DNA of 64,000 nt from Prunus persica. Taxonomy: Eukaryota; Streptophyta; Magnoliopsida; Rosales; Rosaceae. The notes under the pieces are model-generated. The model was not told where the DNA came from. It did no database searches and was given only the letters and a program-made list of their open reading frames with translations. Location of the stretch: positions 18,021,077 through 18,085,076 of the forward strand of contig NC_034009.1 of NCBI RefSeq assembly GCF_000346465.2, given 5' to 3'. Below, in pieces: positions 5,026 to 60,020 of this stretch. Each line of letters begins with the position of its first letter. The first letter of the stretch is position 1. The position numbers and the translations under genes were made by a program.

Positions 5026-6894
5026 CATAAACATAATAAATTAAAAAAACATCTTCACTTCACTTCATTCACCTTCATTGCCTTTCACCGCCCATAAATG
5101 CTCTATCAAGTCAACTTGACGGCGTTCATGAATATACGAAGATTGCATCTCCGTGTAGCGATCAATCATACGGGGCATGAAACTACCGTCTCTAACCAAC
5201 GGTTCATGCTACACTGGTTCTCCATTTGGCCCCATGGGTTTTTCATAAATTCGTGTTAGGGCCGTGTCCATGGGATCTAGTTCATACACTTCATTAGCAT
5301 CATAATCATACTCGTCTTCCACAATCATGTTGTGGAGGATGATACAAGTCATCATTATACTCCTAAGCACCTCCTCGTCAAATAGACGCGTCGCGCCCCT
5401 GATAATAGCCCACCGGGCTTGAAGGATACCAAAGCACCTCTCCACATCTTTTATGTACCCCTCTTGATAGGTAGCAAAAAAATTTTGCTTATAGGATCGG
5501 TGATGTGGAATTGATTTCACAAATATTGTCCACCTCAGGTAGATGCCATCAGCTAGATAATACCCGTTCTGGTAGACGGTATTGTTGATTTCATATGTGA
5601 TATTTGGGGCTTCACCTCTCAAAACATCATTGAACACCAGGGATTGACCCAGGACGTTCAAATCGTTTTGAGATCCGGCAAGTCCGAAGAAGGCGTGCCA
5701 AACCTATGTATCAAAATTAGCAACTGCTTCAAGGATGATACTTTTCTGCCCTTTCCTATTTCCGTAATCCCCTTGCCAAGCAGTTGGACAATTTTTCCAT
5801 TGCCAGTGCATGCAGTCAATGCTACCAATCATTTCAGGAAATTCATGAGACTCAGCTTTTTGTAGAACCCGTTGCAGGTCCATGGGCGTAGGTCTATGCA
5901 GGTAGTCCCTGGTGTACAGAGTTTCCACTGCATCACAAAATCGCACCAAACTCTCCAAAATAATGGACTTCCTCATTCGGGCAACCTCATCCACCTGATT
6001 AGTAGATGACCCATAAGCCAACATTAGTAGCACAGGTGTGAATTTTTGCTCGGGAAGAAATCCCAAATTTCCAGCATAATTTTTCTTTTGAACAAAGTAT
6101 TCATCATAATTGCAAATATCATGCATGACTTTATTGAACAAATGGGGTTGCATTCTATATCTTGCTCGAAAATGAACATCAGAGTACAGAGAATGTGGGA
6201 TAAAATAATCTTCCAGAATATTCTTACCACGAGAATGTCTATGTCTGTCCACATTCGGGCCACGGTCTTCTCGTGAACCACGATGGCTCTGATTTTCTTC
6301 CTCCAACAAAGCAACTGCTATGCCAAGTTGCTCATCTAGTTCTCTCTACGCCTTTTTGCTTGCAGCTCGTCTACGTATTCTTTCTCTAGTTTCTCGCTCT
6401 TGCCTCTCCAAAACCTCTTGCATGTCTGTCATTGAGAATGGAGAATGAAATCTAAAATCTGAGAAATGGAAATGTAGAGAAGATCTGGTGTGGGAGGTAT
6501 GAGCTGAGCCTCTGGTTTTATAGAAAAATTTAGGCATATAGATATGACACGTGACGCAATCTTAGAGGGTGAAAATCTTATCTGAAATTTGAAATTGAAA
6601 TGAAATTTGAAATTTGAAATTTATCTGAAATTTGAATTTTGAAATGTATCTGAAATTTGACATTTGAAATTTATCTGATATTTGAATTTTGAAATGTATC
6701 TAAAATTTGAAACCGAAAATCTTATCCGATTTGAATAGTATTAACACGTAAGAACCCAAAAATCTTATCCGAAAATATTATCCAAATTAATTGTTTAATT
6801 AAACAAAGTTGTGAAGAAAAAAAACAAAAAAATGAACAGTAGCTACCTTAGGGCTCCTCTTGCCATGGCAAGGGGCTAACTGCTGGAAATGCTT
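5026..6894 (-). mobile_element. Truncated PIF/Harbinger transposon
   Basis: This carries the transposase half of the element seen complete at 28522-32357, in the same orientation. ORF1 and the left terminal repeat are missing; the left boundary abuts the truncated LTR at about 5020. The right end reads CTGGAAATGCTT, a degraded form of the CTGGAGTTGCTC-type Harbinger terminus. The distal 300 bases contain the AAATTTGAAATTTATCTG simple repeat also present in decayed form in the second copy. Confidence 0.8.
5209..6432 (-). pseudogene. PIF/Harbinger transposase (DDE_Tnp_4), two nonsense codons
   Basis: Reading from 6432 one frame is collinear with plant Harbinger transposases (ALP1/HARBI1-like). 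It has an Arg/Glu-rich start (MTDMQEVLERQERETRER), the helix-turn-helix region (MQPHLFNKVMHDI), the first catalytic Asp in GSIDCMHWQWKN, the second in GSQNDLNVLGQS, and the catalytic Glu in KDVERCFGILQARW. In-frame stops occur at 6346-6348 and 5704-5706. The second replaces the Trp expected before VWHAFFG. No frameshift is seen, so only two point changes break this copy. It cannot make full-length enzyme. In life the protein would cut and insert at TWA targets together with the Myb-like ORF1 partner, which is absent here. Confidence 0.9.
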
Positions 6895-22100: not shown

Positions 22101-25100
22101 AAAAAGAACAAAATTAATCCTTTTAATTAGCTGTAAACTGCACCCAGTCAAAAAGACAGGTATTGATTTAATCAATAAATCACTATACCATATAAGAAAG
22201 TCTAGCGAGAGAGGTAAGATAAAAAACATTCGATATAGAACAACCATACTCCAATAGTCCAGTTCGAAATTAATGCAAGTATATCACAAAGAACCTTCTA
22301 CCTAACAAAGTTTTATCAACCTATCATGCTAATGTGCTTAACGTTTGATATGGCACCCGCATTACTATATTCACTGTTACATTTAATTTAATTTATCTCA
22401 TAGCAAAAACAGTATAATGAAGCTTCTAGTAGTGTGGAAAGAAAACCAAATTTAATAATGAGGCTTCTAATAAGAATGTGTCTAATACCCCGTGGGCAAT
22501 CATGGGAAATCAGAAACCTATGAGGGATAATACTTGCTAGATTCTAGTTCACTATGTTTATAAAAGTAATTTGTGGTATTAGTTAGCTCCTCTAAGATAG
22601 CAAGAAGGAACCGCCTTTTTCAGAAACCGTTAGTAGCTTGATTTTGAATGTGTGAGGTGCATGGAAATTCCTTGGTCTGATCCAAAATCAAAAAGGTTAT
22701 GCAGCTGCTTGCCACCATGTGAAAGTCTTCTTCCCTAGTATGGTGCTAGGTTTCTCGAGGTTAGTCTAGGGGTCTAGATCCCAGGCTACCATTCTAATTT
22801 CTTTATCTGTGTATCACTGTATCTTAGTAAGATTATATTCACTCTCGAGTAATTTTTCAGATCATCCAACATATTTAGGTTACTATAAGAATGTGAAGAT
22901 AGACAAGTTCTCCATCAAGGAAAAGGTCCAACTAAAAACTAACAGCGGAGACATTACAAATATCTAAACATCCACTGCCAATTTTAAAACAAAAATTCAT
23001 GCTTTCAATGAAGGAAACAGTTAAATCCAAAAACAACTATAAAAATTAGATGGAAACTGCATCAACAATATCATAATTTGGGCCATGAGCTAGTTATCAC
23101 TTAACTCATAAGCAGATGAAGGAAACGAAGGTTACGCTAGTGTTGGAGTCAAGGTAACACAGATAAGGAAAATATTAAGGGGGGATTACACAACTGAAAG
23201 GACTAGAAATCCAGCCACAGCCCTTGCCACACAAAAAAGAAAAAATAGGAAAAACATGGAAGCATATGAGACATTGAAAGTTTATGTTCTCCCCTCTTCC
23301 CACTACCCAAAATAAATCAAAGAAATCCCCCGAACAATAAAAGAAAAAAAGGTCATAAACCTTCAAACATTGTCCTCATTAAAATATGATTACCCACTAT
23401 GGAAATTATAAAGATTTTTAAAGAAGAGTACATCATAATATAATTGCCAAAGCTGGACCTTACCTGACGAATTTGATGGCAGAGAAAAACAGTGATGGAA
23501 ATCACTAAGGTAAGCATTTTCGTGGACCTGAAACGTTCAAACTTACTCAGACAGTATGACAGGCATATTTTCTTTTTAATAGAAACATTTTTATTCAAAT
23601 TGTAAGGATCAAAACAAGGCCATTTAGCACACGGGTAAAAAGAAAACACTAGCCGGTGAAACAGATACAAGGCCACTCAACACATAACTAACCAACCAAC
23701 CATAAAACAAACCCTTAAGATACTACAGCCAGCAGATTGCGCATAATTATAGGATAGGGTACATCCTTAAAGGCAGGGGAAGTTGATGCCCAAAGGGCAG
23801 CCCAAAACTTCACTCTATCCCATAACTCTGCCACTCCCACTCCCTTATAATCCTCAAAAATTCTCCTGTTACGTTCCATCCATAGGTTCCAAACCACTGC
23901 CTGCATCAGACTTCCCCAGAGAATTTTGGCTTTCTTTCCCCTTCCCAAAGCATCAAATCTGATGGAAAAAAGTTCAAAGCAGCCTTCTGGTATTACCCAC
24001 ACCGTGTTCACTTCCTTCAATAGTGTCTCCCACAACTTTAGAGAGAAAGGGCAATGAATCAGGAGATGGTCCACGCTCTCCCCTGCCTTATTACATAGAG
24101 CACACCAGTGAGGGCTAATGCACAAATAGGGACACGGTCTCTGTAATGTATCACCTGTATTTAGTTTTCCCAACACCGCTTGCCACACAAAGATCTTAAC
24201 TTTCGGAGGAGTCTTGGCCTTCCAAATTTGAGTGTACGGGGAGAATATCTCCCCCTCATCACAATTCTGAATATGAGAACAGAAAGAATGACAGGTGAAG
24301 AGTCCAGAGGGGTCAAGCTTCCATCTTCTCATATCCAATCTGGAAGTGATCACCCTCACACCCTCCAATAAATCCAGCAATCTAGCCGCCTCCGTTATAT
24401 CCAATTCATTGAGATTCCTCCTGAAACCGAAATCCCAACTGAGAGCGAACCCATCTGAGCCCGTAAAAGAGGAAATATTGTGATTTTGCTTTCTGGACAA
24501 ATTGAAGAGTCTAGGAAACACCTCTTTCAAAACACCATCCCGGCTCCAATCATCCTCCCAAAATCTGACCCTAACTCCACAACCTACCACGAAAACACAG
24601 CCTTGAAGAAACAAATTATAGCCGCTAGAAATGTCCCTCCAAGGGCTGCGACAAGATCCCCGAGTCACAGGTTTAGCATCCCACCCATTTGTATCCATTC
24701 CATAAATACTTCTGATCACTTTATGCCAAAGAGCATGAGGTTCGTTAGGAAACCGCCAAAGCCATTTTGCCCGCAAAGCTGCACTCCTAGCCCTCAACGA
24801 ACGCACCCCTAACCCTCCACAGAATTTTGCCTTGCCCACAACCTCCCAACTCACAGCGTGGTTTCTTTTCCCATCCAAACCTTCCCACAAGAAATCCCTC
24901 ATAAGCTTCTCGATTCTATTGGCTACTCCAATGGGAATCCTGAAAAGGGACATGTAGTAGATCGGAATACTACACAACACAGCCTGAATCATTGTGAGTC
25001 TTCCCCCTTTGGATAGGCAAGCTCGCTTCCATTTTTGTAATCTATTCTCCACCTTTTCCACAACGGGATCCCAAAACTTTATCGCCCTGGGGTTCCCGCC

Positions 25101-27985
25101 TAGGGGAAGACCCAAATACGACATAGGCCAAGCCCCCACTTCGCATCCCCAAGCCCCAGCCAGCTCATTCAGCAGCCCATCATCCAGATTAATGCCAACT
25201 AGAGAACATTTTGATACTGAAATGATTATTAGTGTAATTTATGTTTGGCTTGATATACTTGTTGCACCCCTTTTATACAAAGTTAAGTTTTTCATGTTAT
25301 GAGAGCTCTGGTTGACTATTTCATCCTGTATCCAAATACAGGCGACTCAACTTCAAGTAAGTTTTTCAGTTTTGCATGTGAAAGGCCCGTAGTTGATTCA
25401 AGTTTTTGGGGAGGCTTTAATAACAAATGATTGTCCTATAAGCGTAATCTTTTGGGATCCACAGTTTCTCAATAATCCTAACTATACTATGAGTACTTCG
25501 ACTGTAATCAAACACATATCCCGAAGTAGCCACCAGAGAAACCTATAACATAATACAGACTCACGAGATCACTCACTCCTTTCATATCTCAGAGGATTAT
25601 TGGGGAAATAAATTATTTTAATTAAAAATAAATATTCAATAAGTACAAAACTGCTTTAAAGTAAAGTATTAAACATTTCTTATCCATATAGAGTCTGAGA
25701 AACAATGCGGATACTTTTAGTTTTTGTGAATATGACAACATAAACTAATAAATGACAAAACTTCTGAAGTTTCAAAAAGGATACCAATCTAATAAAAGTA
25801 TGTGGATTTTTAAACTCAACGATCAGAGCAAGTATGTGGATTTTAAAACTGAGTCACCTCTCTGAAATGAATTCTCATATTAAGTTTGATGACCAATTTC
25901 TGAACGAAGTATTGAGGAGACAGAAGGTAAAATGATTGCTATATATTTCTTGACGAAATCTTTGTGATGAGCTTTATAACCTTAAAAGAAAACATAAAGA
26001 GAACCAGAATTTGTTTATCTATGGTTCAATGCATCAGAGTAGCACATTGGTATCATTGGTAATTTTTTGTGACATTATTCCTGTTATCAACGCTTCATGC
26101 ATAGTCTAATCCATTATTTGTCTGTGTAACAACATATTAGTTAGCATTCGATAAATAAATTGTTCACATAATGAGGGAAACACTATCTATCCTCCATGAG
26201 TTGACAAAACCCAAAGGCCAAAAACCACCTCCAAGAAGAACAACGATTACATCATATATGTATTGCTTACCACACTCTCAGAATTATGACGACACCTCCC
26301 AGCACAGAAATCAAAAACATTTGAATATTTCCCTGCCAAGAGAAAACTGTGAGCACACATTATCCCAAGAAAAAATAATGTTCAGGGGTAAATATATTTC
26401 TTGATTGCCACTGCAAGGGGCAAAAAAGAGGTTTCACAAGACTAATTCCATGCAATGGATAAAGGGGATAAATAGTCAAATCGGGACTTCTAATCTTCCA
26501 AAACCTAGTAGAAATAGCGGTTGAACATTCATTTATCAATGTGCCCTAAAGCTGTCAGACTCTTCATGCAAAGATCATTTTGTGGATTTTTAAACTCAAC
26601 AATCTCTGAAATGAGATCTAATGCAGCATCAGAGCAGCGAATGCTCAAGATTAGTCTCCGAGAAAAGATTCAAAACCTTCTACTATTTAAAATTGTACCT
26701 GCAGTAGCTGGTTTGGCAACCTTCACATTCATTACTTGTTCCTCTTTTATCTGCACAATAAAACCCACTAATACTGAAACTTACAATATTAAAAAGAGAA
26801 CAGAAAAACACAAAGGAAATAATATAGACAATGGAAAATGGTAATACAAAATTTGAAGAATTCAAGAAATTACCCTTGAGGGATTTAGACAGCATGAAAC
26901 ACAATATTCATAAGAATCACAACACTCTGAAACTACATTGCAGCCACTGCAGACAAAAGGGAGGCAGGAATGTTGTTAATTTGCTCAATCTTCCGATAAA
27001 GAATTTCAGAGTTCTACTTAGTGAAAAACTCACTGACAAGAGAATTTTTCTCCTTTTTCAGGGCAGCAGCGAGACTGCGGATTTAAAGACAGAGCGTCAC
27101 AGACATGGCCTACAATGCAAATATAGATTATATAAATAAGTAAACAAAACATGATACGTTATCAGAAGATTTTTGATAAGTTATAAGCAAAAAAAGGACA
27201 AACTTGAAAACTAATGGCACAAGAAGAAACTTAGAGAGGGGCAAGCTGACCATTATCATCAGATAGTAAGTATCTTCCTAGGACCGTATTTTTGCAAATG
27301 CGCCTCCCTTGAAATCCAACATCCTTCCTGTAAATTTGAAGGGAAAACGAACATGTTGTAAATTGTAACAGTACGAGCATATCATCAACTAGGGGAGAGC
27401 CATAACAAAAATGTACAAAATATAGCACCAAACCACTGAGACACAAGCAATCGAAAGGAGCAATTGTGTTGTGGGATAAACCAAAGAATAAAGAGAAGTA
27501 CAATAACCCACAGTAACAAATAGCACATAGAATAGCAGTCTGTCACTATTTGACCCAAAGAAAAACATAAGAAATTTCCAATAGTAATGCATCCATATTC
27601 TTTTCAAATTCAGTTTCACGAGCAAAATTGGTAGATACTGTATTACGTTTGCTTCTTCTCTGTTAGTTATTGGCAGATACTGTATTAATACTATTAAATA
27701 AATAAACAAGAAATAAAACCCATGCCCAGTACGGGAAAGCCATCAAGATTCAAAATTCAGAAGAACATAAACAAGAACCCAAGCAGCATTACCACAAGAT
27801 TCAACCTTTTGCCCCCATTTCCTCTGTTTTCTCAGCAACCAAAGAGACGAACCAAAATTATATTGAAAATAGAAAACAGAAAAATGAAAAATGTACCTGA
27901 TGGCTGAGATTCTTGGGGAGAATTGAAGGATTAATAGGTGAAAGAATAGCAAGAATAAGTTTAATCTGGAAATGGACATTTTCAT
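19126..27985 (-). CDS. SPRING1-like: SPRING1/C12orf49-like (UPF0454) cysteine-rich secretory protein, 11 exons
   Basis: Coding exons on the minus strand: 27985-27897, 27327-27251, 27109-27034, 26946-26874, 26750-26699, 26332-26271, 23527-23464, 22063-22027, 21913-21827, 20327-20234 and 19218-19126. All junctions are GT-AG and phases join without a stop, giving 267 residues. Residues 1-28 form a hydrophobic signal peptide or anchor. Residues 41-100 carry the family signature: CKNTVLGRYLLSDDNG, then paired Cys (SRCC, SECC) and YEYCVSCCLNP. Residues 129-156 hold DFCAGRCRHNSESV and a conserved HENAY. N162 (NSS) is a possible N-glycosylation site. Residues 170-267 are a second Cys-rich domain ending HTRRLCPCA, absent from the animal protein (about 205 residues). 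Animal SPRING acts in the Golgi on Site-1 protease and SREBP processing. The plant role is unknown, so only lumenal secretory-pathway residence is inferred. ATG at 27985 is the first in frame before the signal peptide. Confidence 0.88.
23565..25218 (-). mobile_element. 5'-truncated LINE (L1-type) in intron 6
   Basis: An uninterrupted reading frame runs from about 25218 down to the stop at 23715, collinear with the 3' half of plant L1 ORF2. It has the post-RT segment (YLGLPLGG, KWKRACLSKGGRLTMIQAV, SIPIYYMSLFRIP), a thumb region (FGGLGVRSL-like, here CGGLGVRSL), and near the C-terminus a zf-RVT zinc-knuckle domain (PPKVKIFVWQAVLGKLNTGD, CALCNKAGESVDHLLIHCPF). The catalytic FADD box and endonuclease are missing, as expected from 5' truncation. 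The 3' end shows an A-rich tail in minus-strand sense (AAAAATGTTTCTATTAAAAA). Absence of stops over 500 codons suggests a fairly recent insertion. It lies in sense orientation within intron 6 of the SPRING1-like gene. Confidence 0.9.
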
Positions 27986-35904: not shown

Positions 35905-35940
35905 AGCACGGGTCGATACAAATAAAGCAAAATCTGTGTG

Positions 35941-36087
35941 TGTTGTAAAATATATGGTGGAGCCCACCTCTACACCTCTACTTGCCTATAAATAGGCTTC
36001 TCCCTCTACTTGTATTATACATAGAAATAAGAATGAAGAAACTCTCTCTCTCTCAATTTCCTCTCCAATTTCTCTAGATTTATAACA
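35941..36087 (+). repeat. 5' LTR of the Copia-type element
   Basis: 147 bp, TG...CA ends. A TATA box TATAAATAGG lies at 35987-35996, followed by a pyrimidine-rich start region. It ends ATTTATAACA immediately before the primer site. Confidence 0.93.
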
Positions 36088-36101
36088 CGTTATCAGCACG
36101 A
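36088..36101 (+). promoter_or_regulatory. Primer-binding site matching the tRNA-Ile anticodon arm
   Basis: CGTTATCAGCACGA abuts the LTR end. Its complement TCGTGCTGATAACG matches the anticodon stem-loop of eukaryotic tRNA-Ile(AAU), recalled as TCGTGCTAATAACG. The only difference is at wobble position 34, which is inosine in the mature tRNA and would be copied as G. This implies a half-tRNA primer as in Drosophila copia, not a tRNA 3' end. Confidence 0.65.
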
Positions 36102-36127
36102 TTTCTCTATCTCCAAATTCAGAGCCT

Positions 36128-36132
<5 letters not shown>

Positions 36133-36162
<30 letters not shown>

Positions 36163-36195
36163 CTCTCTGTCTCTCTCTCTCTCTGTCTCTCTGTA
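36133..36195. repeat. (CT)n microsatellite in the element leader
   Basis: Interrupted CT run between the primer site and the captured calmodulin-like fragment. Confidence 0.9.
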
Positions 36196-36428
36196 ACTCC
36201 TTCACAGAGCTGATATCTTCGTCTCTCCTGAGGAGATGAGCTTCTCTGCCAAACCTCAAACCTTAACACCCATCTTTTAATCTGGGTCCTCAGTTCCACC
36301 ACCATAAACCACCACCGCCTTAATCGACCCCTTGACCTTGTGTGGGATCGTACAAGCACTTAACCACAAGAGTAAAGGCAAAGGCAGAACCAAAACAAAA
36401 CAAGTAGCCAGAACCAAAACAAGTAGCC

Positions 36429-36814
36429 ATGGCAACCAACGGAACCCCAAGCCCAGCCCAAGCCCCAAAATCCGTCGACGCCAAGCCAGTTGTCACCGAC
36501 GAGGTTCAGAGAGTCTTCAAAAGCTTCGACGCCAATGGTGACGGCAAGATCTCCGTCTCCGAGCTCGGCAACGTGCTCAAGGCCCTCGGCTCCAGCGTCT
36601 CTGCCGATGAGCTTCAGCGTGTCATGGGCAATCTCGACACCGACCGCGACGGCTTCATTTGCCTCGACGAGTTCAACGCCTTCTGGGTCTCCGGCTCCAA
36701 GGACGGCAACGCCGCCGAGCTTTGCGACGCCTTTCAATCTCTACGACCAGGACCGCAACGGCTTCATCTCGGCCAACGAGCTCCATTTGGTGCTCAATCA
36801 ACTCCAACAAATGC
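36429..36814 (+). pseudogene. Captured calmodulin-like (CML27-type) fragment
   Basis: Starts at ATG in a good context (AAGTAGCCATGGCA). It gives MATNGTPSPAQAPKS, then a first EF-hand loop DANGDGKISVSE, a second DTDRDGFICLDE, and a third DQDRNGFISANE. A one-base insertion near 36733 (GCCTTTCAATCTC) shifts the frame between loops two and three. The reading stops matching at about LVLNQL, so the fourth EF-hand is lost and the sequence runs into the permease fragment. Intact family members are about 140-170 residues with four loops and sense calcium. This copy could at most make two loops followed by a foreign tail. Confidence 0.85.
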
Positions 36815-37033
36815 CGTGTGGCTCTGCGCAGCCATCGGTTTGCTGTTTGGACTGCCCATCTTGAAACTTGATGTAGCATTCACAGCCTTCATTTCAGTTA
36901 GTACAATTGGCTGGGTGGGTAGTTATGCGGTGCCAATTTTTGCTAGGCTGGTGATGCTGAAGAGAACTTCAAACCAGGACCCTTTTATTTGGGTAGAGCA
37001 AGCAGGCCAGTTTGCTTGGTGGCCTTCCTGTGG
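36815..37033 (+). pseudogene. Captured BAT1-type amino-acid permease fragment
   Basis: In the frame continuing from the shifted calmodulin-like part it reads AVWLCAAIGLLFGLPILKLD, then ISVSTIGWVGSYAVPIFARL. These match a transmembrane segment pair of plant BAT1 (APC-superfamily bidirectional amino-acid/GABA transporter), from family memory. A one-base deletion near 36956 shifts the frame; the alternative frame gives NFKPGPFYLGRASRPV then CLVAFLW and ends. Only about 73 of roughly 520 residues are present. No intron interrupts it. Confidence 0.75.
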
Positions 37034-37269
37034 AAAACAAAACGGGCAAAAGGCCCTGCTTCGACATTTCAAAGGAGAAGAAAGTTGACTTCCCAGAATT
37101 GGTCTTCCAATTCAAAGGTGGTGCCAAGATGGAATTGCCATCGAAGAATTATTTCTCTATGGTTTCAAGCTCAGGCGTTGTGTGCTTGACCATTGTTACA
37201 GATGGGGTTGTAGGCCCAGGCGGTAATGGTGGACCTGCGATTATCTTGGGCAATTATCAGCAGCAATGA
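37034..37269 (+). pseudogene. Captured aspartyl protease (nepenthesin-like) C-terminal fragment
   Basis: The reading gives PCFDISKEKKVDFPELVFQF, GGAKMELPSKNYF, VVCLTIVTDGVVGP and GGPAIILGNYQQQ, then TGA. This order is the C-terminal part of plant A1-family aspartyl proteases (At4g16563-like), where ILGNYQQQ is usually followed by about 25 more residues. Neither catalytic Asp motif (DTG/DSG) lies in the fragment, so it is inactive. It joins the permease fragment directly at about 37033. Confidence 0.8.
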
Positions 37270-37559
37270 TGAAAGCAAAAGCAGATCCAACAGCAAATCC
37301 ACCGAAAGAAAGAAAAATAAACAATAATAAAGAAAAAAAAATTTTATGCTTTCTATTATTTTATTATTCCTCTACAGTATTTAATAAACCAATTAGTGCA
37401 GGTGTGCAGATTACAGGTGAAAAGCATTCGATTTGAGAGACAAGCATGATGCCTTCCACAAACGATAATAATATTATCTGCTATACTATTTTATCGTGGT
37501 GTTGATTAGAACCCACCAATAATTGCCTTTATTTTATCGCAAATTTACTTTTACTTAAA

Positions 37560-38010
37560 GTATGATGTGGAATTGACCCTCATACTTTATGAAATTTACT
37601 TTACCGCACATTTATTTTATTTACTGTATGGTGTAGGTTTATTACCCATACAACAGTATTTATTTAAAAGGGTGGTGCGGGTTTATCGTCTACGCCTTTA
37701 CTTTTATTTAAATGTATGGAGCAGAATTAGTGCCCATACAAGCACAATTTACTTTACCGCACATTTAATTTTACTTAAAGTATGGTGCGGGATTAACGTC
37801 CATACAGCAAGCAATTTATTTTATGCATTTAATTTACCGCACATTTACATTTATTTAAAAGGGTGGTGCGGGTTTATCGTCCACGCCTTTACTTTTATCT
37901 AAATGTATGGAGCAGAATTAATGCCCATACAAACACCTTAACTTTATGAATTTAATTTACCGCACATTTACATTTATTTAAAGTGTGGTGCGGGTTTATC
38001 GTCCATACCA
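37560..38010. repeat. Tandem repeats, ~65-bp unit in a 191-bp higher-order unit
   Basis: TTTACCGCACATTTA and GGTGGTGCGGGTTTATCGTC recur. The phrase AAAAGGGTGGTGCGGGTTTA is at about 37666 and 37857, spacing 191. Non-coding and internal to the Copia-type element. Confidence 0.85.
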
Positions 38011-38079
38011 GTAATTTATCTACCAGCAATTTATTTTATGGACTAAATGTGCTGTATGATGAGTTTTTACAGTAAGCAG

Positions 38080-38530
38080 ATCAGGACCAGAAGTTCCTTG
38101 ATCCTCATCATACAATTACATCAGGACTTGAAGATCCTTGATGATGATGTTAATATGAGAGCTGGCAGTCTCTCCGGTACTATATTTGTAAACATGTGAT
38201 CGGACTTGAGGGTCCTTGATCCCTGACATGTAAATAAGGACCTGGGGTTCCTTAATGATGTAACAGTACCGTATTGGTTCATAATGCCGTACACATGGAT
38301 GATAACTGTACTGGCAAATGTACTGTACACATAAATAGTGCCGTATACATGAATAGTGATGTATGCATAAATATTTACCATTTTGGGTAAACTATCACTA
38401 TTCAAAAAGGGAACTTGCAGTTCCTTAAACTCATGGATGAGCAATTAAATGAGATGCCAGAAGTTCCTCAAAATATGGACAATTATGTAAGGGCTTGAAG
38501 TCCAGAAATATGTACAGAAAATTGTAAAAA
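38080..38530. repeat. Short dispersed repeats (GAAGTTCCTTGATCC-type)
   Basis: The phrases AGAAGTTCCTTGATCC, GAAGATCCTTGATG, GAGGGTCCTTGATCC and GGGGTTCCTTAATG recur at irregular spacing, with ACTGTACACATAAATAGTGC-like repeats near 38310. No coding content. Confidence 0.6.
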
Positions 38531-38648
38531 TGTCCATACCATGAGAATATGTGATTTTGGCCCGAAGTTCAAAATCTAAGGGGATTGAATGTCCATACCA
38601 TGAGAATATGTGATTTTGGCCAGAAGTTCAAAATCTAACAGTGTTGAG
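38531..38648. repeat. 59-bp tandem duplication
   Basis: TGTCCATACCATGAGAATAT begins at 38531 and again at 38590; the two copies differ at few bases. Confidence 0.9.
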
Positions 38649-39414
38649 AACCTGAAGTTCCAACAATTAAATGGACAACCCTTGAGGTATTATTGCAAAT
38701 TGTGGTACGCCACATATCTCTTTGGCATAAGAGAATGATGAATTGAGACTCCCCACATATTTTGTTATATCTGGGCCGGAAGCTCATGAACCCAAATATA
38801 TGAGATATTAGCGTGGCTTTTACTCAATTCATATTTCATGTCCATTTTGAAAAGGGCAAATAAATTCTGAGTTTGTGTTTAGCCCAGGCCAAAAGTTCTG
38901 GGCTCCCATACGTTGAAATATGAAATTTGGGAGAGTCGATGTGGTTATTTAAACCTATAAGGCACAAGGTTCCAAACCGTCATTTTGAAAAGACGTAAAA
39001 ACCACAGGTGCAAATTTTAAGAATGTGCGCAATTATTATAACTGGAAAGGAGCAAGTTGAAACGCAGTTGCTCCAATCAAGTTTTGCAAAGGCCATATCT
39101 ATAGGAGGAAATATGGCTACAGTTTCCAGGATCCCAATATTATCTCAGATCCCCATATTATCTTTTTCTTTCCCAGAGTCCAAAACTTCATGTGGCCTCT
39201 GACAATGCATGTCGGCACTTTCGACGTTTTCAAAGTATTATTTTCATCAAAAGCCGATCTTACTTTACGGATTTCACGGAGCTACTTTTTCAAAAGTATC
39301 CCGAGAATCTCGCAATTTTCCTGTGGTTAATTTGAAATTCACCGGTTCTACCTATTCATTGTATTTGTGTATAAATGTATTACTAACGAAATTTTCTTTG
39401 CAGAAGACATTCAG

Positions 39415-39514
39415 NNNNNNNNNNNNNNNNNNNNNNNNNNNNNNNNNNNNNNNNNNNNNNNNNNNNNNNNNNNNNNNNNNNNNNNNNNNNNNNNNNNNNN
39501 NNNNNNNNNNNNNN
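39415..39514. other. Assembly gap (100 N)
   Basis: Exactly 100 N within the Copia-type element interior. Unknown sequence may be missing here. Confidence 0.99.
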
Positions 39515-40017
39515 GAAGCGAGACTATCCCTAATCACGTTTCCGCTACATCAGGAAACTGTGAAGGTGATCTTATGCTCTAATCTCCGGAAGTCCTTCTA
39601 GACTAGGAGATATGAGAGCTTATTGTCTGCTCCCACCAGCTTCCTTCCCTGATTGCTTACCTTCTCTTTTTGCATTTTTTCTCTTTCTGTAACTCTCTGA
39701 GGATTATTTGTTTTTGACAGAGAAAAGAGTTGTGATTTTACTATTGCAGGATATAACTAGATCATCAAGCATTACATTTACTGGGCCGATACAAGCTTGA
39801 ATGATACTTGAGAAAAGTTTCTCCCACCTAAGGATGTAAGCAATACTTGTGTTATTTTTTTGCTTATATACTTATTTGATATTTTATCTTGAAAGGTAAC
39901 CAAATGGGAAGATAAGTCCGTTCCAAAAGAATGGCTTGTATGTATCCATGAATTATTAATGCAAATTTTACAGATTGCAAGTTGGATACATTGATAATAC
40001 ACTGCACAGATTAATGT

Positions 40018-41462
40018 TGTTGAGGCCCAAAAAATCCACGCTTCGGCCCAAATAAATTCTCAGCCCAACGCGATATCTTACCGAGAAGAAACCCAATTTG
40101 GGGCACGCGAAAGTTTGCCATATGCGCTTATACACATGCCACGCCAAGCAAATAAACAACATGCCATGCTACAAGCTTAAGTGGGCCCAAGCCACGCAAG
40201 ATGCCCGGGGCTTGCTTGAGTGGGTTGTGGTATGGATGGTAATAGGTCGTCATGAGGCCCATTGATGGGTCAAGAAATGGAGGTTCCGGGTTGCTTGGGA
40301 GCCTCGGAACCCAAGCCCATTTCTTAGGCCCAAACATGTGGGTGAGCACAAAAGAGAAAATAACCCAACCAAAATGACCCAATCAAAGAATAGCCCAACC
40401 AAAAGCCCAATGTTTAATAAAATAGCCCACTTGCTTAAGAAACCACTTTAGCCCATACAAAAACCCCAAAAATAAGCCATAAAATCTCAGCCCTTTGCTG
40501 GAAAAAATAGAAGCCACGTAGAGGTCTGCAGAATCATTGAACAGAGCTGCTGAAGTGACAACACATTGGAAGAGATCAAGTTCCAAAACAAAACACCAGA
40601 GAAACCAATGGGTGTTAACATGCAAGCTGCCAGGAAGAGAGACACTCTCCAAACCAACATACACATCCCAACTCCTTCCCTATCAAAACTGGTCATAGGA
40701 AGGAGTGAGAAAGAAAGGAAAATAAAATGGCTGGAAGTGGAAAACCTCCACTGGAGCAGCCGCGGGAAAGGGGGCCTTGAGCTCCAAAATTCCTAATTTT
40801 GTGCAAATTGATCTGGGAAGTCTACCAAAATAGGAAAAAGTCAAGATAAGAAAGGAAAAGGGAAGGAAAAAACTTGCTAAGTTGGGGAAGAAACCATTAG
40901 GTTTTCTTGGGGAATGAAGGTTTCCCTCAGCTATAAAAGGAGGTCCCTTCCACCTAGCAAAAACGAACCCAGGCTGAGAGAGCAAGCTCCCTCTCTTACT
41001 TGCAAAAATTCAGTAGCCCTATTCACTCTTCTTCTTCGTTCTTCTCTGTTAACAGACTATTTTCAGAGTCTGTCAAGCTGCCGGAAGAAGTAATGCCCTT
41101 CTTTTACCCCTTTTTAGCCAAGATCATCCTGCAAACCTTGTCTCCCTCATCTTAAACACTCCCATTTCTCCCTAGGAAGCCTTATTTTCCTCTTTGGTGC
41201 TCAACTCATGCTGACCTTGCTCCCATGCCACAATCTCCTCATGCTAAGCTAAAACTTTATCTGTAAGCAAGCATAAATCACCTGCAAGCAGCCATCATTT
41301 TCGTTGGTGAAGGTAACCAGAACACTTCCTAAGGCTTTACTGCCCTTTCGAAGTGCTTTTGGGGCTTAATTTTCGAACTCAGGCACAGGGGGCAATTTCA
41401 GTAATTTCCCCTTTACGGCAGCCCAGCCCATTTGCAGCTGCCGGAAGAAAAAGACCCCCACA
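40018..41462 (+). mobile_element. Solo LTR (48436 family) nested in the Copia-type element
   Basis: A complete TG...CA LTR of 1445 bp begins TGTTGAGGCCCAAAAAATCC and ends AGAAAAAGACCCCCACA. The 5-bp duplication AATGT lies on both sides (40013-40017 and 41463-41467), so it is a proper insertion reduced by LTR-LTR recombination. A TATA box (TATAAAAGG) lies at 40932-40940. It must be younger than the host element. Confidence 0.93.
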
Positions 41463-41507
41463 AATGTACCATAAGAACAGAATATGGGTATAGAGTGATC
41501 AATATGA

Positions 41508-41869
41508 TGCACGCCTGTTGCGTAGCAAATGATATGGATTGAAGTCCCGAAAGGACAATCCTTTGACATGTCAATATTGATATTATGCACGCCTAATGCG
41601 TAGCAAATTATATGGGTTAAAGTCCCAGAAATTAATTGACATGTATGTATTAATCTGTGGCATGCCTGCAGCATGACAGATATATGGGTGCACGCCTGTT
41701 GCGTAGCAAATAATATGGATTGAAGTCCCGAAAGGACAATCCTTTAACGTGTCAATATTGATATTATGCACGCCTAATGCGTAGCAAATTATATGGGTTA
41801 AAGTCCCAGAAATTAATTGACATGTATGTATTAATCTGTGGCATGCCTGCAGCATGATAGATATATAGG
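41508..41869. repeat. 181-bp tandem duplication
   Basis: Two copies start TGCACGCCTGTTGCGTAGCA at 41508 and 41689, nearly identical. Each holds a shorter internal repeat (CACGCCTAATGCGTAGCAAA). It belongs to the Copia-type interior, resuming right after the solo LTR. Confidence 0.9.
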
Positions 41870-42793
41870 TTCTAAATGTTCCAACTCTCTAAATAGAGAT
41901 TATCCACGCCCTACTGTAAAATAACGCTCTATTGGAGGTTATAATCCACATTCTCATATAATAAAAGCCCCATGAAGTGGCTTGGGTACCCAAAAGCAAA
42001 GGAATGCTTATAATTGATGCATGCGCATGCACATGAGAATTGTGAGATTATGAATTGATGAATGACAATTTTTGGTTTTGGAGTAGCTACTCAAATCATC
42101 AATGGGCTGTGTTGATTGGAACCACGTTCAATTATTAAATGTCGACAATATTATTGGCCAAAATGGAACGAGGTAATTCCATTATAGATGAGAATGAACG
42201 TGAAAGAACAAACCCACAATACGAACCCCAAAATTTGTTAATACTGAAATTTATACTTGGGTGTTCGGAATAAAAGAGAATATACCTACTTTGTATGACA
42301 CACTGTTTCTGGCAGAAACAAGGAATGTTGGGTTTTCTCCATATTTACAGATTCAATTGCGCCCCCCTTATTACACAATTACGGAGACCAACATATTATC
42401 TTTAAGGGTTATTAAATGCACGGAGCATATCGCCAGAAGCGATTTCCTAAAGATGTATAAATAGCTGGGTAAAAGCTATATAATGTGTCATAAAGTTTAA
42501 TCCCTTTTAGACAAAATCCGTTGAGAGGATTGACAATTGCATAAAGCAAGTCCCTAAAGGACATGTGCTTGAAGCTAAAAATTTGTACTCAATATTAATA
42601 TGCATAAATTACCTCAGTGAGTACATTGATTATAATGTGATTGCAACACATTAAAGTTTCTGCAGAATTCATGAAATATTTGTCTCGATCAAGCATTATA
42701 CCAACGAGATTCTTGCTTATACTAAGAGAGTCTTATCCGTTGGTCCTTAAATGTTTTTCCAGAAGTATACTAGACCAGATAGAGCTCAGCTCC

Positions 42794-43390
42794 ACACTGT
42801 ACTCTTTTTCCTTCATCCAGGTTTTTATCCCATTGGGTTTTTCCTGGTAAGGTTTTAACGAGGCAGTGTCGCTCAAGGGTTTAGGGTATACTATGAAAAT
42901 TTTTATGGTCGCTTACTGGACAAAAGCTAGTCCTAAATTTTTCAGGGGGAGATATTCATCAGGGGGAGCATGGTTTTAATAAAGACCTTCATACACTGTA
43001 CTCTTTTTCCTTCATCCAGGTTTTTATCCCACTGGGTTTTTTTCCTGGTAAGGTTTTAACGAGGCAGTGTCACTCAAGATTGACTCACAGAAGCAGTGTC
43101 AACTACGATATTCAGAAAGCTGATCAACAGTATGACTTAAAGATATTTTGCCAAACATCAGGGGGAGCGCGCTATCAATAAAGATCTTCAAACACTGTAC
43201 TCTTTTTCCTTCGTCCAGGTTTTTATCCCACTGGGTTTTTCCTGGCAAGGTTTTAACGAGGCAGTGTCGCACGTGCGTCAATATACATAGAATTTTATGT
43301 TACACATGATTATGTACTCTTTTTCCCTTTGACCAGTTTTTGTCCCACTGGGTTTTTACTGGCAAGGTTTTTAAAGAGACATATTCTGTA
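42794..43390 (+). repeat. Fourfold 3' block (GTACTCTTTTTCC...GAGGCA)
   Basis: Blocks begin near 42794, 42993, 43192 and 43312. Each holds TTTTTATCCCACTGGGTTTT and AAGGTTTTAACGAGGCA. The first three are about 199 bases apart and separated by CAGGGGGAG purine tracts. Such a block usually appears once downstream of RNase H in plant Copia elements. Confidence 0.85.
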
Positions 43391-43414
43391 TCATTTGTGG
43401 TCTCCAAGGAGGAG

Positions 43415-43565
43415 TGTTGTAAAATATATGGTGGAGCCCACCTCTACACCTCTACTTGCCTATAAATAGGCTTCTCCCTCTACTTGTATTATACATAGAA
43501 ATGAGAATGAAGAAACTCTCTCTCTCTCTCTCAATTTCCTCTCCAATTTCTCTAGATTTATAACA
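43415..43565 (+). repeat. 3' LTR of the Copia-type element
   Basis: 151 bp. Differs from the 5' LTR by one A-to-G change and two extra CT units. Preceded by the purine tract CCAAGGAGGAG and followed by the GTGTG target duplication. Confidence 0.93.
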
Positions 43566-43722
43566 GTGTGTAGATAGTGTGACACCAATGTCATATGTCT
43601 GCTTTTGTAGATTAATTCAGACACACCTAATTTGGTGGACGGTCGGTCGATAATATACACTTCTCCTTCTTTATAATGTTCTCGTGTAAATTGTAATGCT
43701 CCTTCTTTGTAATTAATTTATT

Positions 43723-46467: not shown

Positions 46468-47260
46468 TCAAAAGCTATAGTCTGATTTGAGCACTCTTTT
46501 GCTTTTGGAGCCATCCATGAACCCTTTCAACCCTGTAACTCCATTGCCCATGTCTTCACCTGCAGCCTTGGCCTGAAGCAGCTCTTCCTCTGTGGGCTTG
46601 AAAGCTGGATGTTCTAAAATGCTTTTGAGCAGCTGGGTTCCTCTCAAAGCATTCGTCAATGGCAGATGGCCTTCTGGTGTGTCCTCGTTGAGCTCCCAGA
46701 TGAACTCATTGGGGAAGGCTCTGTAGTTGTATTGCTCAACTTCTGTGTCCAGCTTCTTCATCCACCCAACCTTAATGAAGAATTTGGTGAAGTCATTGCT
46801 CACTTTGCCATATATTTTTCTCTGGACGCTGTACCCAAATTTGTTGTTGCTGTGCTGCCTCCAGAGGTCGTCAATGGCCTTGAGGTCGGCTTCTGAGATG
46901 AACTGGGCCTCGGAGAAGAAGACGTAGCCTCGCTTCTGGGCTTGTTCTCCGGCCAGGACGATGAGGAGGCGGCGGGTTTCTTCGTCCGCTTCACGGAAGT
47001 TTTGGGTGGAGAGGTGCTGCTGTAGGAGGTCAAAGGAGATGGCTTGGGTGGAGGAGGGTGTGGAGAGTGAAGTGGTGGGTGAGATTGAGAAGGTTTTGGT
47101 GGAGGAGAGAGAAGAAATGCTTATGGTGTTTGGGGTGTTTGTGGTGGTGGGTTTGAGGAAGAGAGTGGAGGAGAGTGTGGAAGGAGCTATCTCTGTGTGG
47201 TGGTGGTGGTTGAGGAGTGAGTGGTGATTGTGGCATATGGATTCGAAAGACTTGGTTGCC

Positions 47261-47262
<2 letters not shown>
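46468..47262 (-). CDS. GUN4: GUN4, chloroplast tetrapyrrole-binding regulator of Mg-chelatase
   Basis: Single exon, 264 residues, complete. Residues 1 to about 70 are Ser/Thr/His-rich and lack acidic residues, as expected for a chloroplast transit peptide. The GUN4 core (about 76-225) carries the family landmarks NFREADEETRRLL, RGYVFFSEAQFIS, DDLWRQHSNNKFGYSVQ, VEQYNYRAFPNEFIWE and GHLPLTNALRGTQLL. The C-terminus RVLKSDYSF matches the plant-specific tail that is phosphorylated in Arabidopsis. GUN4 binds protoporphyrin IX and Mg-protoporphyrin, stimulates Mg-chelatase (CHLH) and takes part in plastid-to-nucleus signalling. I chose ATG at 47262 (MATKSFES) because plant homologues start MAT and total about 265 residues. 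The frame stays open upstream without a start signal resembling the family. No damage is seen. Confidence 0.96.

Positions 47263-47290
<28 letters not shown>
47263..47290. repeat. (GA)n microsatellite in the GUN4 5' leader
   Basis: Fourteen GA units end at the base before the GUN4 start codon, so the leader reads (CT)n directly into ATG. Confidence 0.92.
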
Positions 47291-47292
<2 letters not shown>

Positions 47293-47537
47293 GTGTGTGG
47301 TCGTGGTGGTGGTGGAGGAGGAGGAGGAGAAGTAGGAGAAGTTAGGAGGGCCAAAGGGGAAGGGAGGAGATGGGCTTAGAGATATGGAGAGATGTGTTGT
47401 GTTTGTGAGTTTTGAGTTTGATATATGACAGATAAGAAATGAGTGAAGGGGGAATTGGAGAGGTGATGAGGAGCAATAGAAGTGAGAACTTTGATTGGCT
47501 AGATGTGGGTGAGGCTTGATCCTCGTATGCACATGTA

Positions 47538-48435: not shown

Positions 48436-49889
48436 TGTTGAGGCCCAAAAAAATCCACGCTTCGGCCCAAATAAATGCTCAGCCCAATGCAATACCTTAC
48501 CGAGAAGAAACCCAATTTGGGCACGCGAAAGTTCGCCATATGCGCTTGTACACATACCACGCCAAGCAAATAAACAATGCGCCATGCTACAAGCTTAAGT
48601 GGGCCCAAGCCACGCAAGATGTCCGGGGCTTGCTTGAGTGGGTTGTGGTTTGGAAGGTAATAGGTCGTCATGAGGCCCATTGATGGGACGAGAAATGGAG
48701 GTTCCAGGTTTCTTGGGAGCCTCGGAACCCAAGCCCATTTCTTAAGCCCAAATATATGGGTGAGCAAAAAAGGAAAATAACCCAACCAAAATAACTCAAC
48801 CAAAATTAGCCCAATCAAAGAATAGCCCAACCAAGAAGCCCATCATTCAACAAAAATAGTCCATTTACTTAGTGAACCTTAGCCCATACAATTGTCATAG
48901 ATGAACCACAAGCTCCAGCACCTAGCTGGAATAGAAGCCACGAAAAGGAAGTTTGAAAGTTCATTGAATAAGGCTGCTAGGAAGTGCCAGCACATGGGAA
49001 TGGATCAAGTTCCAAAACAAAACACCAGAGAAACCAAGGGATGTTAACATGCAAGCTCCCAGGAAGAGAGACACTCTTCAAACCAACATACACATCCCAA
49101 CTCCTTCCCTATCAAAACTGGTTATAGGAAAGAGTGAGAAAGAAAGGAAGAAAATGGCTGGAAGTAGAAATCTTCTACTGAAGCAGCCGCAGGAAAGGAG
49201 GCCTTGAGCTCCAAAATCCCTGATTTTTTGCAAATAGATAGAGAAAAATCTCACTAAAACAGGAAAAGTCAAGAGAGGAAAGGAAAAGAGAAGGAAAACC
49301 TTGCTAAGTTGGGGAAGAAACCATTAGGGTTTCTTGGGGAATGAAGGTTTCCCGCAGCTATAAAAGGAGGTCCCCTCCACCTAGCAAAAACCAACCCAGG
49401 CTGAGAGAGCAAGCTCCCTCTCTTACTTGCAAAAATCCAGTAGCCCTATTCACTCTTCTTCTTCGTTCTTCTCTGTTAACAGACTATTTTCAGAGTCTGT
49501 CAAGCTGCCGGAAGAAGTAATGCCCTTCTTTTACCCCTTTTTAGCCAAGATCATCCTGCAAACCTTGTCTCCCTCATCTTAAACACTCCCATTTCTCCCT
49601 AGGAAGCCTTATTTTCCTCTTTGGTGCTCAACTCATGCTGACCTTGCTCCCATGCCACAATCTCCTCATGCTAAGCTAAAACTTTATCTGTAAGCAAGCA
49701 TAAATCACCTGTAAGCAGCCATCATTTTCGTTGGTGAAGGTAACCAGAACACTTCCTAAGGCTTTACTGCCCTTTCGAAGTGCTTTTGGGGCTTAATTTT
49801 CGAACTCAGGCACAGGGGGCAATTCCAGTAATTTTCCCTTTACGGCAGCCTAGCCCATTTGCAGCTGCCGGAAGAAAAAGACCCCCACA
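48436..49889 (+). repeat. 5' LTR of the LARD element
   Basis: TG...CA ends, 1454 bp. It contains an inverted CCCATTGATGGG landmark and GCTATAAAAGGAGGTCCC in the promoter region. Confidence 0.95.
49359..49367 (+). promoter_or_regulatory. TATA box of the LARD 5' LTR
   Basis: TATAAAAGG about 530 bases before the LTR end; the same motif is at 59490-59498 in the 3' LTR and 40932-40940 in the solo LTR. Transcription would start near 49390. Confidence 0.65.
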
Positions 49890-58566: not shown

Positions 58567-60020
58567 TGTTGAGGCCCAAAAAAATCCACGCTTCGGCCCA
58601 AATAAATGCTCAGCCCAATGCAATACCTTACCGAGAAGAAACCCAATTTGGGCACGCGAAAGTTCGCCATATGCGCTTGTACACATACCACGCCAAGCAA
58701 ATAAACAACGCGCCATGCTACAAGCTTAAGTGGGCCCAAGCCACGCAAGATGCCCGGGGCTTGCTTGAGTGGGTTGTGGTATGGAAGGTAATAGGTCGTC
58801 ATGAGGCCCATTGATGGGACGAGAAATGGAGGTTCCAGGTTGCTTGGGAGCCTCGGAACCCAAGCCCATTTCTTAAGCCCAAATATATGGGTGAGCAAAA
58901 AAGGAAAATAACCCAACCAAAATAACTCAACCAAAATTAGCCCAATCAAAGAATAGCCCAACCAAGAAGCCCATCATTCAACAAAAATAGCCCATTTACT
59001 TAGTGAACCTTAGCCCATACAATTGTCATAGATGAACCACAAGCTCCAGCACCTAGCTGGAATAGAAGCCACGAAAAGGAAGTTTGAAAGTTCATTGAAT
59101 AAGGCTGCTAGGAAGTGCCAGCACATGGGAATGGATCAAGTTCCAAAACAAAACACCAGAGAAACCAAGGGATGTTAACATGCAAGCTCCCAGGAAGAGA
59201 GACACTCTTCAAACCAACATACACATCCCAACTCCTTCCCTATCAAAACTGGTTATAGGAAAGAGTGAGAAAGAAAGGAAGAAAATGGCTGGAAGTAGAA
59301 ATCTTCTACTGAAGCAACTGCAGGAAAGGAGGCCTTGAGCTCCAAAATCCCTGATTTTGTGCAAATAGATAGAGAAAAATCTCACTAAAACAGGAAAAGT
59401 CAAGAGAGGAAAGGAAAAGAGAAGGAAAACCTTGCTAAGTTGGGGAAGAAACCATTAGGGTTTCTTGGGGAATGAAGGTTTCCCGCAGCTATAAAAGGAG
59501 GTCCCCTCCACCTAGCAAAAACCAACCCAGGCTGAGAGAGCAAGCTCCCTCTCTTACTTGCAAAAATCCAGTAGCCCTATTCACTCTTCTTCTTCGTTCT
59601 TCTCTGTTAACAGACTATTTTCAGAGTCTGTCAAGCTGCCGGAAGAAGTAATGCCCTTCTTTTACCCCTTTTTAGCCAAGATCATCCTGCAAACCTTGTC
59701 TCCCTCATCTTAAACACTCCCATTTCTCCCTAGGAAGCCTTATTTTCCTCTTTGGTGCTCAACTCATGCTGACCTTGCTCCCATGCCACAATCTCCTCAT
59801 GCTAAGCTAAAACTTTATCTGTAAGCAAGCATAAATCACCTGTAAGCAGCCATCATTTTCGTTGGTGAAGGTAACCAGAACACTTCTTAAGGCTTTACTG
59901 CCCTTTCGAAGTGCTTTTGGGGCTTAATTTTCGAACTCAGGCACATGGGGCAATTTCAGTAATTTTCCCTTTACGGCAGCCCAGCCCATTTGCAGCTGCC
60001 GGAAGAAAAAGACCCCCACA
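58567..60020 (+). repeat. 3' LTR of the LARD element
   Basis: 1454 bp, about 12 differences from the 5' LTR. Followed by the CCAGG target duplication. Confidence 0.95.

Follow-up and report, generated by a model that had tools for sequence, protein, structure and literature searches.

Differing mosaics of host-gene fragments in the 5' leader of a Copia-related LTR element family in peach

Introduction

How does a single retroelement come to hold pieces of several unrelated host genes, joined head to tail and all running in its own sense? The question is raised by a long terminal repeat (LTR) element in a 64,000-nucleotide stretch of the peach (Prunus persica) genome (NC_034009.1, positions 18,021,077 to 18,085,076; hereafter the window, whose coordinates are used unless a contig is named). 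An earlier note, made from the sequence alone, had described at 35941-43565 a Copia element that carries calmodulin-like (CML), BAT1 permease and aspartyl protease pieces captured from spliced RNAs by template switching. We compared this copy with its donors and with its relatives across the genome (loci are designated by L numbers). Our analysis indicates that the element is very probably a non-autonomous, Copia-related LTR retrotransposon with a tolerant 5'-leader slot, filled by serial template switching on spliced host mRNAs.

Results

Pieces of four loci in the window copy

The LTRs of the window element differ by one substitution and one 4-bp repeat step (1 mismatch and 4 gap columns), and the 5-bp target-site duplication (TSD) GTGTG is present at both flanks of 35941-43565, as the earlier note had read. 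The near-identity of the LTRs suggests that the copy moved recently, which had also been proposed. All three host-gene pieces lie in element sense, and each has a donor of its own elsewhere: the CML piece in L011 (C5:17687688 region, 98.3% identity), the BAT1 piece in L014 (C1:40795821-40796053, 97.9%), and the protease piece in L013 (C7:12905820-12906054, 98.3%). The three unrelated genes are thereby confirmed, and the count of three proved incomplete, since a fourth piece comes from chromosome 3, its donor being noted as a locus only (Table 1).

At the CML/BAT1 join the donors overlap exactly over 5 bp (TCCAA, 36803-36807), and at the BAT1/protease join over 4 bp (TGGA, 37031-37034); the microhomology that the earlier note had suggested looking for is thus present at both. 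A genome search for further copies, also suggested there, gave none of the whole join. The 841-bp join (36429-37269) has a single full-length match in the 227.5-Mb genome (192 contigs), namely the window itself, and in a search of 5.77 billion protein sequences the full join was covered by the window open reading frame (ORF) alone among 91 matches (255 candidates). That every piece matches a near-identical donor of its own, and that the join is unique in the genome, supports template switching as the origin of the cargo.

Pfam placed EF-hand and TAXi_C above the cut-off in the window pieces and AA_permease_2 slightly below it; the latter domain exceeds the cut-off in the BAT1 parent exon. The CML start and its ATG are as first described, but the three EF-hands are not in one frame, because a 1-bp insertion shifts the third. 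As the BAT1 piece in turn carries a 1-bp deletion, an intact fusion frame is absent. The earlier note had further taken the lack of introns in the pieces as a sign of spliced RNA. The pieces indeed contain none, but this is uninformative, because the captured spans are intron-free in the donors as well: the CML parent has an uninterrupted reading frame from start to stop codon, the BAT1 span comes from within its donor's last exon, and the protease span falls in one open frame. We therefore dropped intron loss as proof of an mRNA origin in this copy.

Exact intron removal and junction microhomology in the family

Joins were mapped base by base against their donors in six mosaics (the window copy, L025, L044, L050, L056 and L060). 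Among 14 joins between segments of the same donor, eight remove a GT-AG intron exactly, all in element sense: introns of 340, 121, 108 and 512 bp in L025, 153 bp in L056, and 448, 97 and 89 bp in L060. The reverse CT-AC signature was found in 0 of the 14. These eight removals, all in members other than the window copy, show that the captures concerned derive from spliced mRNA. One candidate for a further removed intron, a stretch of 71 bp in the C2 donor of L060, was rejected: the loss measures 78 bp and lies between two AGCTGAT repeats, and L064 retains the stretch.

The same mosaics contain 23 joins between different donors, not counting tandem-like L082/L083 matches of L050 and a 23-bp match in L056; the join ahead of the CML duplication was entered as a 20-bp gap. 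Sixteen of them entered a microhomology test, the seven with gaps of more than 10 bp being left out. Mean exact overlap was 3.3 bp, compared with 0.69 bp when these donors were joined at random, and an overlap of at least 3 bp occurred in 8/16 joins against 5.5% by chance; a mean as high as that observed did not occur in any of 50,000 simulations. Junction microhomology in the family exceeds chance, and together with the exact GT-AG removals it supports the earlier proposal of capture from spliced RNAs by template switching.

A family with a variable slot

A genome search for the LTR end followed by the primer box gave 727 sites (371 forward, 356 reverse; at most 1 mismatch), whereas a reversed-pattern control gave 0 matches. 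We sampled every fifth among the first 100 listed junctions, that is 20 of the 727, all on C1 and all exact, and viewed about 2 kb at each. Five have a slot of at least 1.3 kb before the repeats (L044, L050, L056, L059 and L060), four have leader, repeats and a gag frame, and in 11 the viewed stretch contains no gag and no long slot (repeats were not found in one, L042). A quarter of 727 extrapolates to about 180 long-slot copies, with a wide error. Six of the 20 sampled sites (L042, L047, L048, L052, L053 and L055) have one different leader and no cargo, and form a uniform subfamily.

The window element has its primer box, its leader repeats and its type of LTR in common with gag-bearing relatives. 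In one of these, L051/L066, the same box and repeats are followed by gag and, in the adjoining stretch, by integrase and reverse transcriptase in Copia order. Among the best 120 of 1267 gag relatives, almond and other Prunus come first, followed by Malus and other plants. The 5-bp flanks match in all six LTR pairs compared (window, L020, L025-L028), and the LTRs are identical within three of them (L025, L026 and L028), which makes the process a recent one.

Slot centres and edges were compared in 23 fetched slots of at least 700 bp. L012 and L015-L022 had been chosen for CML or protease pieces in common with the window, L025-L030 by LTR similarity, and L031-L040 by backbone alone; L013 (a false slot), L017 (638 bp), L031 (285 bp) and L034 (without primer box, unparsed) were left out of this set. 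The left-hand 60 bp and the right-hand 120 bp largely match other slots, with exceptions on the left in L016 and on the right in L029, L025 and L027, and the centres largely do not. In the eight backbone-fetched slots of this length (L032, L033, L035-L040), 0-8% of the centre is common to other compared slots; the corresponding share is 51% in L030, 60% in the window copy and the entire centre in L021 and L022, which are sister copies.

All five long slots of the sample are mosaics from at least two other loci: two donor loci in L044, three in L060, four in L059, at least eight in L056, and several in L050, some of whose pieces also occur in other members. The L056 pieces mostly match one other locus each, at 90-100% identity. 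A first search with this slot, filled by backbone copies, had shown no donors, which emerged when it was repeated without the backbone.

Element-sense ORFs from the slots matched sulfate permease, 14-3-3, importin-beta, AUX/IAA, WRKY, lactate/malate dehydrogenase, DAHP synthase and ML proteins in Pfam. Matches above the cut-off were obtained for 2/3 sense ORFs from the window pieces and for 6/10 and 2/10 in two sets of slot ORFs (no Pfam match for 4/10 and 8/10, respectively). None of ten antisense slot ORFs exceeded the cut-off, and two gave weak matches below it. This sense excess is not a fair test, because the sense ORFs were picked partly for their protein-like look.

Inheritance and turnover of the cargo

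In the slots searched, all seven members holding the protease piece share an identical 3' donor end, and the 5' starts vary (query coordinates): 1386 in L018, 1447 in the window copy, 1492 in L021 and L022, 1560 in L017, and 1612 in L019 and L020. One 3' end and five 5' ends are what a single inherited capture, trimmed from its 5' side by later switches, predicts. Since six relatives have the 3' end in common with the window copy, the window join was not a single event. The head-to-tail chimera is real, but its origin is composite: the protease piece is an older inherited capture, to which the CML, BAT1 and chromosome-3 pieces were joined in this copy only. Four members carry CML pieces, whose ends differ on both sides; this recurrence suggests that abundant mRNAs are captured more often.

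A genome-wide search with seven slots (window, L025, L044, L050, L056, L059 and L060) found a second full-length match for none of them. Complete privacy of the slots was nevertheless rejected, as these searches revealed common stretches in L025, L044, L060 and L050. The 5' cargo of L025 recurs elsewhere in nested stretches of about 61, 145, 155 and 334-339 bp, compatible with switching between co-packaged relatives. The cargo of the family is partly inherited and partly shared.

Discussion

A model of slot filling and the points against it

We propose that particles supplied by gag-pol-bearing relatives probably take up spliced host mRNAs along with the element RNA. During minus-strand synthesis, to judge from the junctions, reverse transcriptase would depart from the element RNA in or near the proposed slot between the primer site and the leader repeats of the 5' leader. 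It would then copy short runs of successive host mRNAs, often by way of a few bases of microhomology, or alternatively the slot of a co-packaged relative, and return near the primer site. The new copy integrates with the 5-bp target duplication seen at the flanks, and later cycles replace part of the inherited cargo to give differing mosaics, as the ends of the protease piece show. A more far-reaching version, for which we see close to even chances, is that of a standing capture slot in which replication cycles overwrite part of the 5' cargo with a fresh patchwork of co-packaged spliced host mRNAs and relatives' cargo; the genome might then hold at least about 100 recent, mostly different exon-shuffling products, some of them annotated as genes.

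Several observations weigh against this model. Six of the 14 same-donor joins are not clean introns, including the loss between 7-bp repeats in L060. Seven of the 23 inter-donor joins contain 11-107 bp of unassigned sequence, and among the 16 tested, overlap is absent from three, and two leave 4 or 7 bases unassigned. In the window copy the pieces span no intron, so the mRNA origin of its cargo is argued from the family, and the divergence of its pieces from their donors (about 2%) exceeds that between its LTRs (1/147), a count too small to tell. Many donors are counted as loci that may or may not be genes. The CML piece of L016 is reversed, which simple minus-strand switching on an mRNA does not yield. 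Finally, cargo is common to other places over 863 of 1472 bp in L044 (one place, 97%), over 988 and 653 of 1746 bp in L060 (two places, 98%), and over the first 339 of 1306 bp in L025 (two places).

Alternative explanations

The cargo could instead be fixed at plus-strand (second) strand transfer, a minus strand that had strayed onto a host mRNA being joined near the primer site by microhomology. Compared with the leader of gag-bearing L051, the match stops at nt 23-32 in 18 of the 23 members with slots of at least 700 bp, the primer box ending at nt 23, and restarts at nt 65-77 in 14 of them (the window copy not included), as this route would have it. It has to accommodate one member that ends at nt 45, four without a left match and nine, the window included, without a right edge at 65-77. 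Several leader types moreover share 60-120 bp past the box, which is thus not where the cargo begins, and donor-to-donor switches are required in any case. We regard this route as unlikely, although it deserves consideration.

A second possibility is that few captures took place and were then inherited and recombined among members, so that slots would differ mostly by recombination of old cargo, with little new capture. The protease 3' end common to seven members, the long stretches of L025, L044 and L060 that recur elsewhere, and several L050 pieces found at three or more places are in keeping with this, as is the frequent intra-family recombination described for Arabidopsis Onsen in the available part of that report (PMC5668417). 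The lack of a second full-length match for all seven slots searched genome-wide speaks against it, as do the L056 pieces that mostly match single other loci at 90-100% and the CML pieces that differ at both ends in four members. On this balance we consider it rather improbable.

DNA-level capture, in which gap repair, ectopic recombination or a Pack-MULE-like DNA transposon placed gene fragments into LTR elements, is compatible with window pieces that cross no intron and with the reversed CML piece of L016. It is largely refuted by the eight GT-AG introns removed exactly, always in element sense, from three other members, and the restriction of the pieces to one slot and the short multi-donor mosaics with microhomology also argue against it; we judge it very improbable. 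Introns, whose retention would mark Pack-MULEs, are removed in three of the six mapped members, although others may differ, and a general repeat scan found no inverted pairs with arms of at least 40 nt inside the element, no scan being aimed at terminal inverted repeats flanking the cargo. Lastly, an assembly artefact that collapsed unrelated sequence around the N gap inside the element (39415-39514), a concern raised in the earlier note, has a negligible chance of explaining the joins, as the gap is over 2 kb away from them within the non-coding backbone, L012, L015 and L025 have 98 bp at this place, and LTR pair, TSD and architecture agree with the relatives.

Relation to known systems

The proposed template switching on spliced host mRNAs into an LTR element is the same route as in known LTR gene capture; what is new is the family habit, with one site and many donors per copy. 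In the available parts of the sources cited here, maize Bs1 is an LTR element carrying pieces of three host genes (PMC13317346), its cargo consisting of exons only (as cited in PMC4717578). The peach elements resemble it in holding pieces of several host genes; they differ in that Bs1 is described there as one element, whereas the slot of the peach family holds mosaics that vary among copies, one of which draws on at least eight donor loci. The soybean terminal-repeat retrotransposon in miniature (TRIM) GmaRetroS15 carries exon-only pieces of three genes and has 5-bp TSDs, and gene-carrying TRIMs comprise 30 elements in seven subfamilies, all but two with at least two copies (PMC4717578). Like the window element they are non-autonomous with 5-bp TSDs; unlike it, they are small, while the peach elements are long and differ in cargo.

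A maize survey listed 425 LTR elements that hold gene fragments; under its conditions and in the part available, none of them combined two or more standard nuclear genes (PMC2774510), in contrast to the peach sample, where 5/5 long slots hold pieces of at least two loci. For rice and sorghum, 672 and 1,343 LTR-captured genes were reported as whole-genome counts, the accessible text mentioning neither a shared slot nor serial replacement (PMC3726574). Arabidopsis Onsen copies recombine during transposition (PMC5668417), there element with element, whereas the peach family would recombine element with host mRNA. Yin et al. described TGTT/AACA Copia and TRIM families of Rosaceae (PMC5659011), which may or may not be the same as the peach family. 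LTR capture goes unmentioned in the accessible part of a 2026 review of Prunus transposable elements (PMC13359793), and we found no description of such a capture slot in the open-licence literature among the matches listed.

Earlier literature on LTR gene capture, as far as its available text goes, offers single cases or genome-wide counts. Hundreds of primer-site junctions and a slot at one place, with readable joins and identifiable donors at 90-100% identity, make the captured mRNAs, stretch lengths, microhomology and cargo turnover measurable, and render the family a natural record of gene shuffling by retroelements. Annotation is affected as well, in that element cargo is listed as peach genes: the gene models PRUPE_7G023700 and PRUPE_3G199600 (partial) are slot chimeras in L012 (C7:3753000-3760500) and L015 (C3:20870500-20878500), respectively. 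In almond (Prunus dulcis), the EF-hand model P0035 contains a CML fragment flanked by unrelated ends, and in apricot (Prunus armeniaca), the model P0045 has a cytochrome P450 part fused to an amino-acid permease part.

Anatomy of the window element and its surroundings

The LTRs have TG...CA ends and a 5-bp TSD, matching the Ty1/copia LTR criterion. No open frame longer than 125 aa was found in 37600-43400, where the N gap interrupts the frames. The absence of a visible pol noted earlier therefore stands. Lacking gag and pol frames, which are seen in L051/L066, the window copy is named Copia-related and non-autonomous, not a full Ty1/copia member. LTRs, a putative primer site and a run resembling a polypurine tract are present and coding genes absent, as in elements of the large retrotransposon derivative (LARD) or TRIM type; at about 6 kb without the nested solo LTR, the element exceeds the TRIM sizes given in the available part of PMC4717578. 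Three relatives align across the empty site of that solo LTR. ARAGORN detected no tRNA genes in the window.

Table 1 Features of the window element, with the strand and the basis of each assignment
Feature	Position	Strand	Basis or remark
TSD GTGTG, 5' copy	35936-35940	.	Direct reading; equals 43566-43570
5' LTR, 147 bp (TGTTGTAAAA...TTATAACA)	35941-36087	+	
Primer-binding-like box CGTTATCAGCACGA, abutting the 5' LTR	36088-36101	+	Motif search of the genome
Leader common to some family members (L030 to ~36304)	36102-36304	+	
Fourth captured piece, chromosome 3	36296-36387	+	100% identity to C3:6452176-6452267
Tandem duplication (imperfect) at the join, copying the CML 5'UTR start	36388-36407	+	
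CML piece: 5'UTR, ATG at 36429, EF-hands	36408-36807	+	98.3% to L011
BAT1-type amino-acid permease piece	36803-37034	+	Donor gene at C1:40795821; span within its last exon
Aspartyl protease C-terminal piece (TAXi_C)	37031-37265	+	98.3% to C7:12905820
Right slot border, common to several members (e.g. L017, L021, L022)	37266-37527	+	
5'-leader repeats (CCGCACATTTA / GGTGCGGGTTTATCGTCCA units)	37528-38022	+	Precede gag in four gag-bearing relatives
Non-coding backbone common to relatives	38023-43403	+	
Nested solo LTR, different family	40018-41462	+	TSD AATGT, 40013-40017 / 41463-41467
Polypurine-tract-like run CCAAGGAGGAG before the 3' LTR	43404-43414	+	By eye
3' LTR, 151 bp	43415-43565	+	
TSD GTGTG, 3' copy	43566-43570	.	

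Elsewhere in the window, two 1.45-kb LTR copies of the nested solo LTR's family (48436-49889 and 58567-60020) lie about 10 kb apart and are probably the ends of one complete element. An ORF for a GUN4-domain protein (Pfam GUN4; 46468-47532, minus strand) is located about 2.9 kb from the 3' end of the element, and two further minus-strand ORFs match zf-RVT (LINE-type; 23715-25139) and Plant_tran (DNA transposon; 5704-6309) in Pfam.

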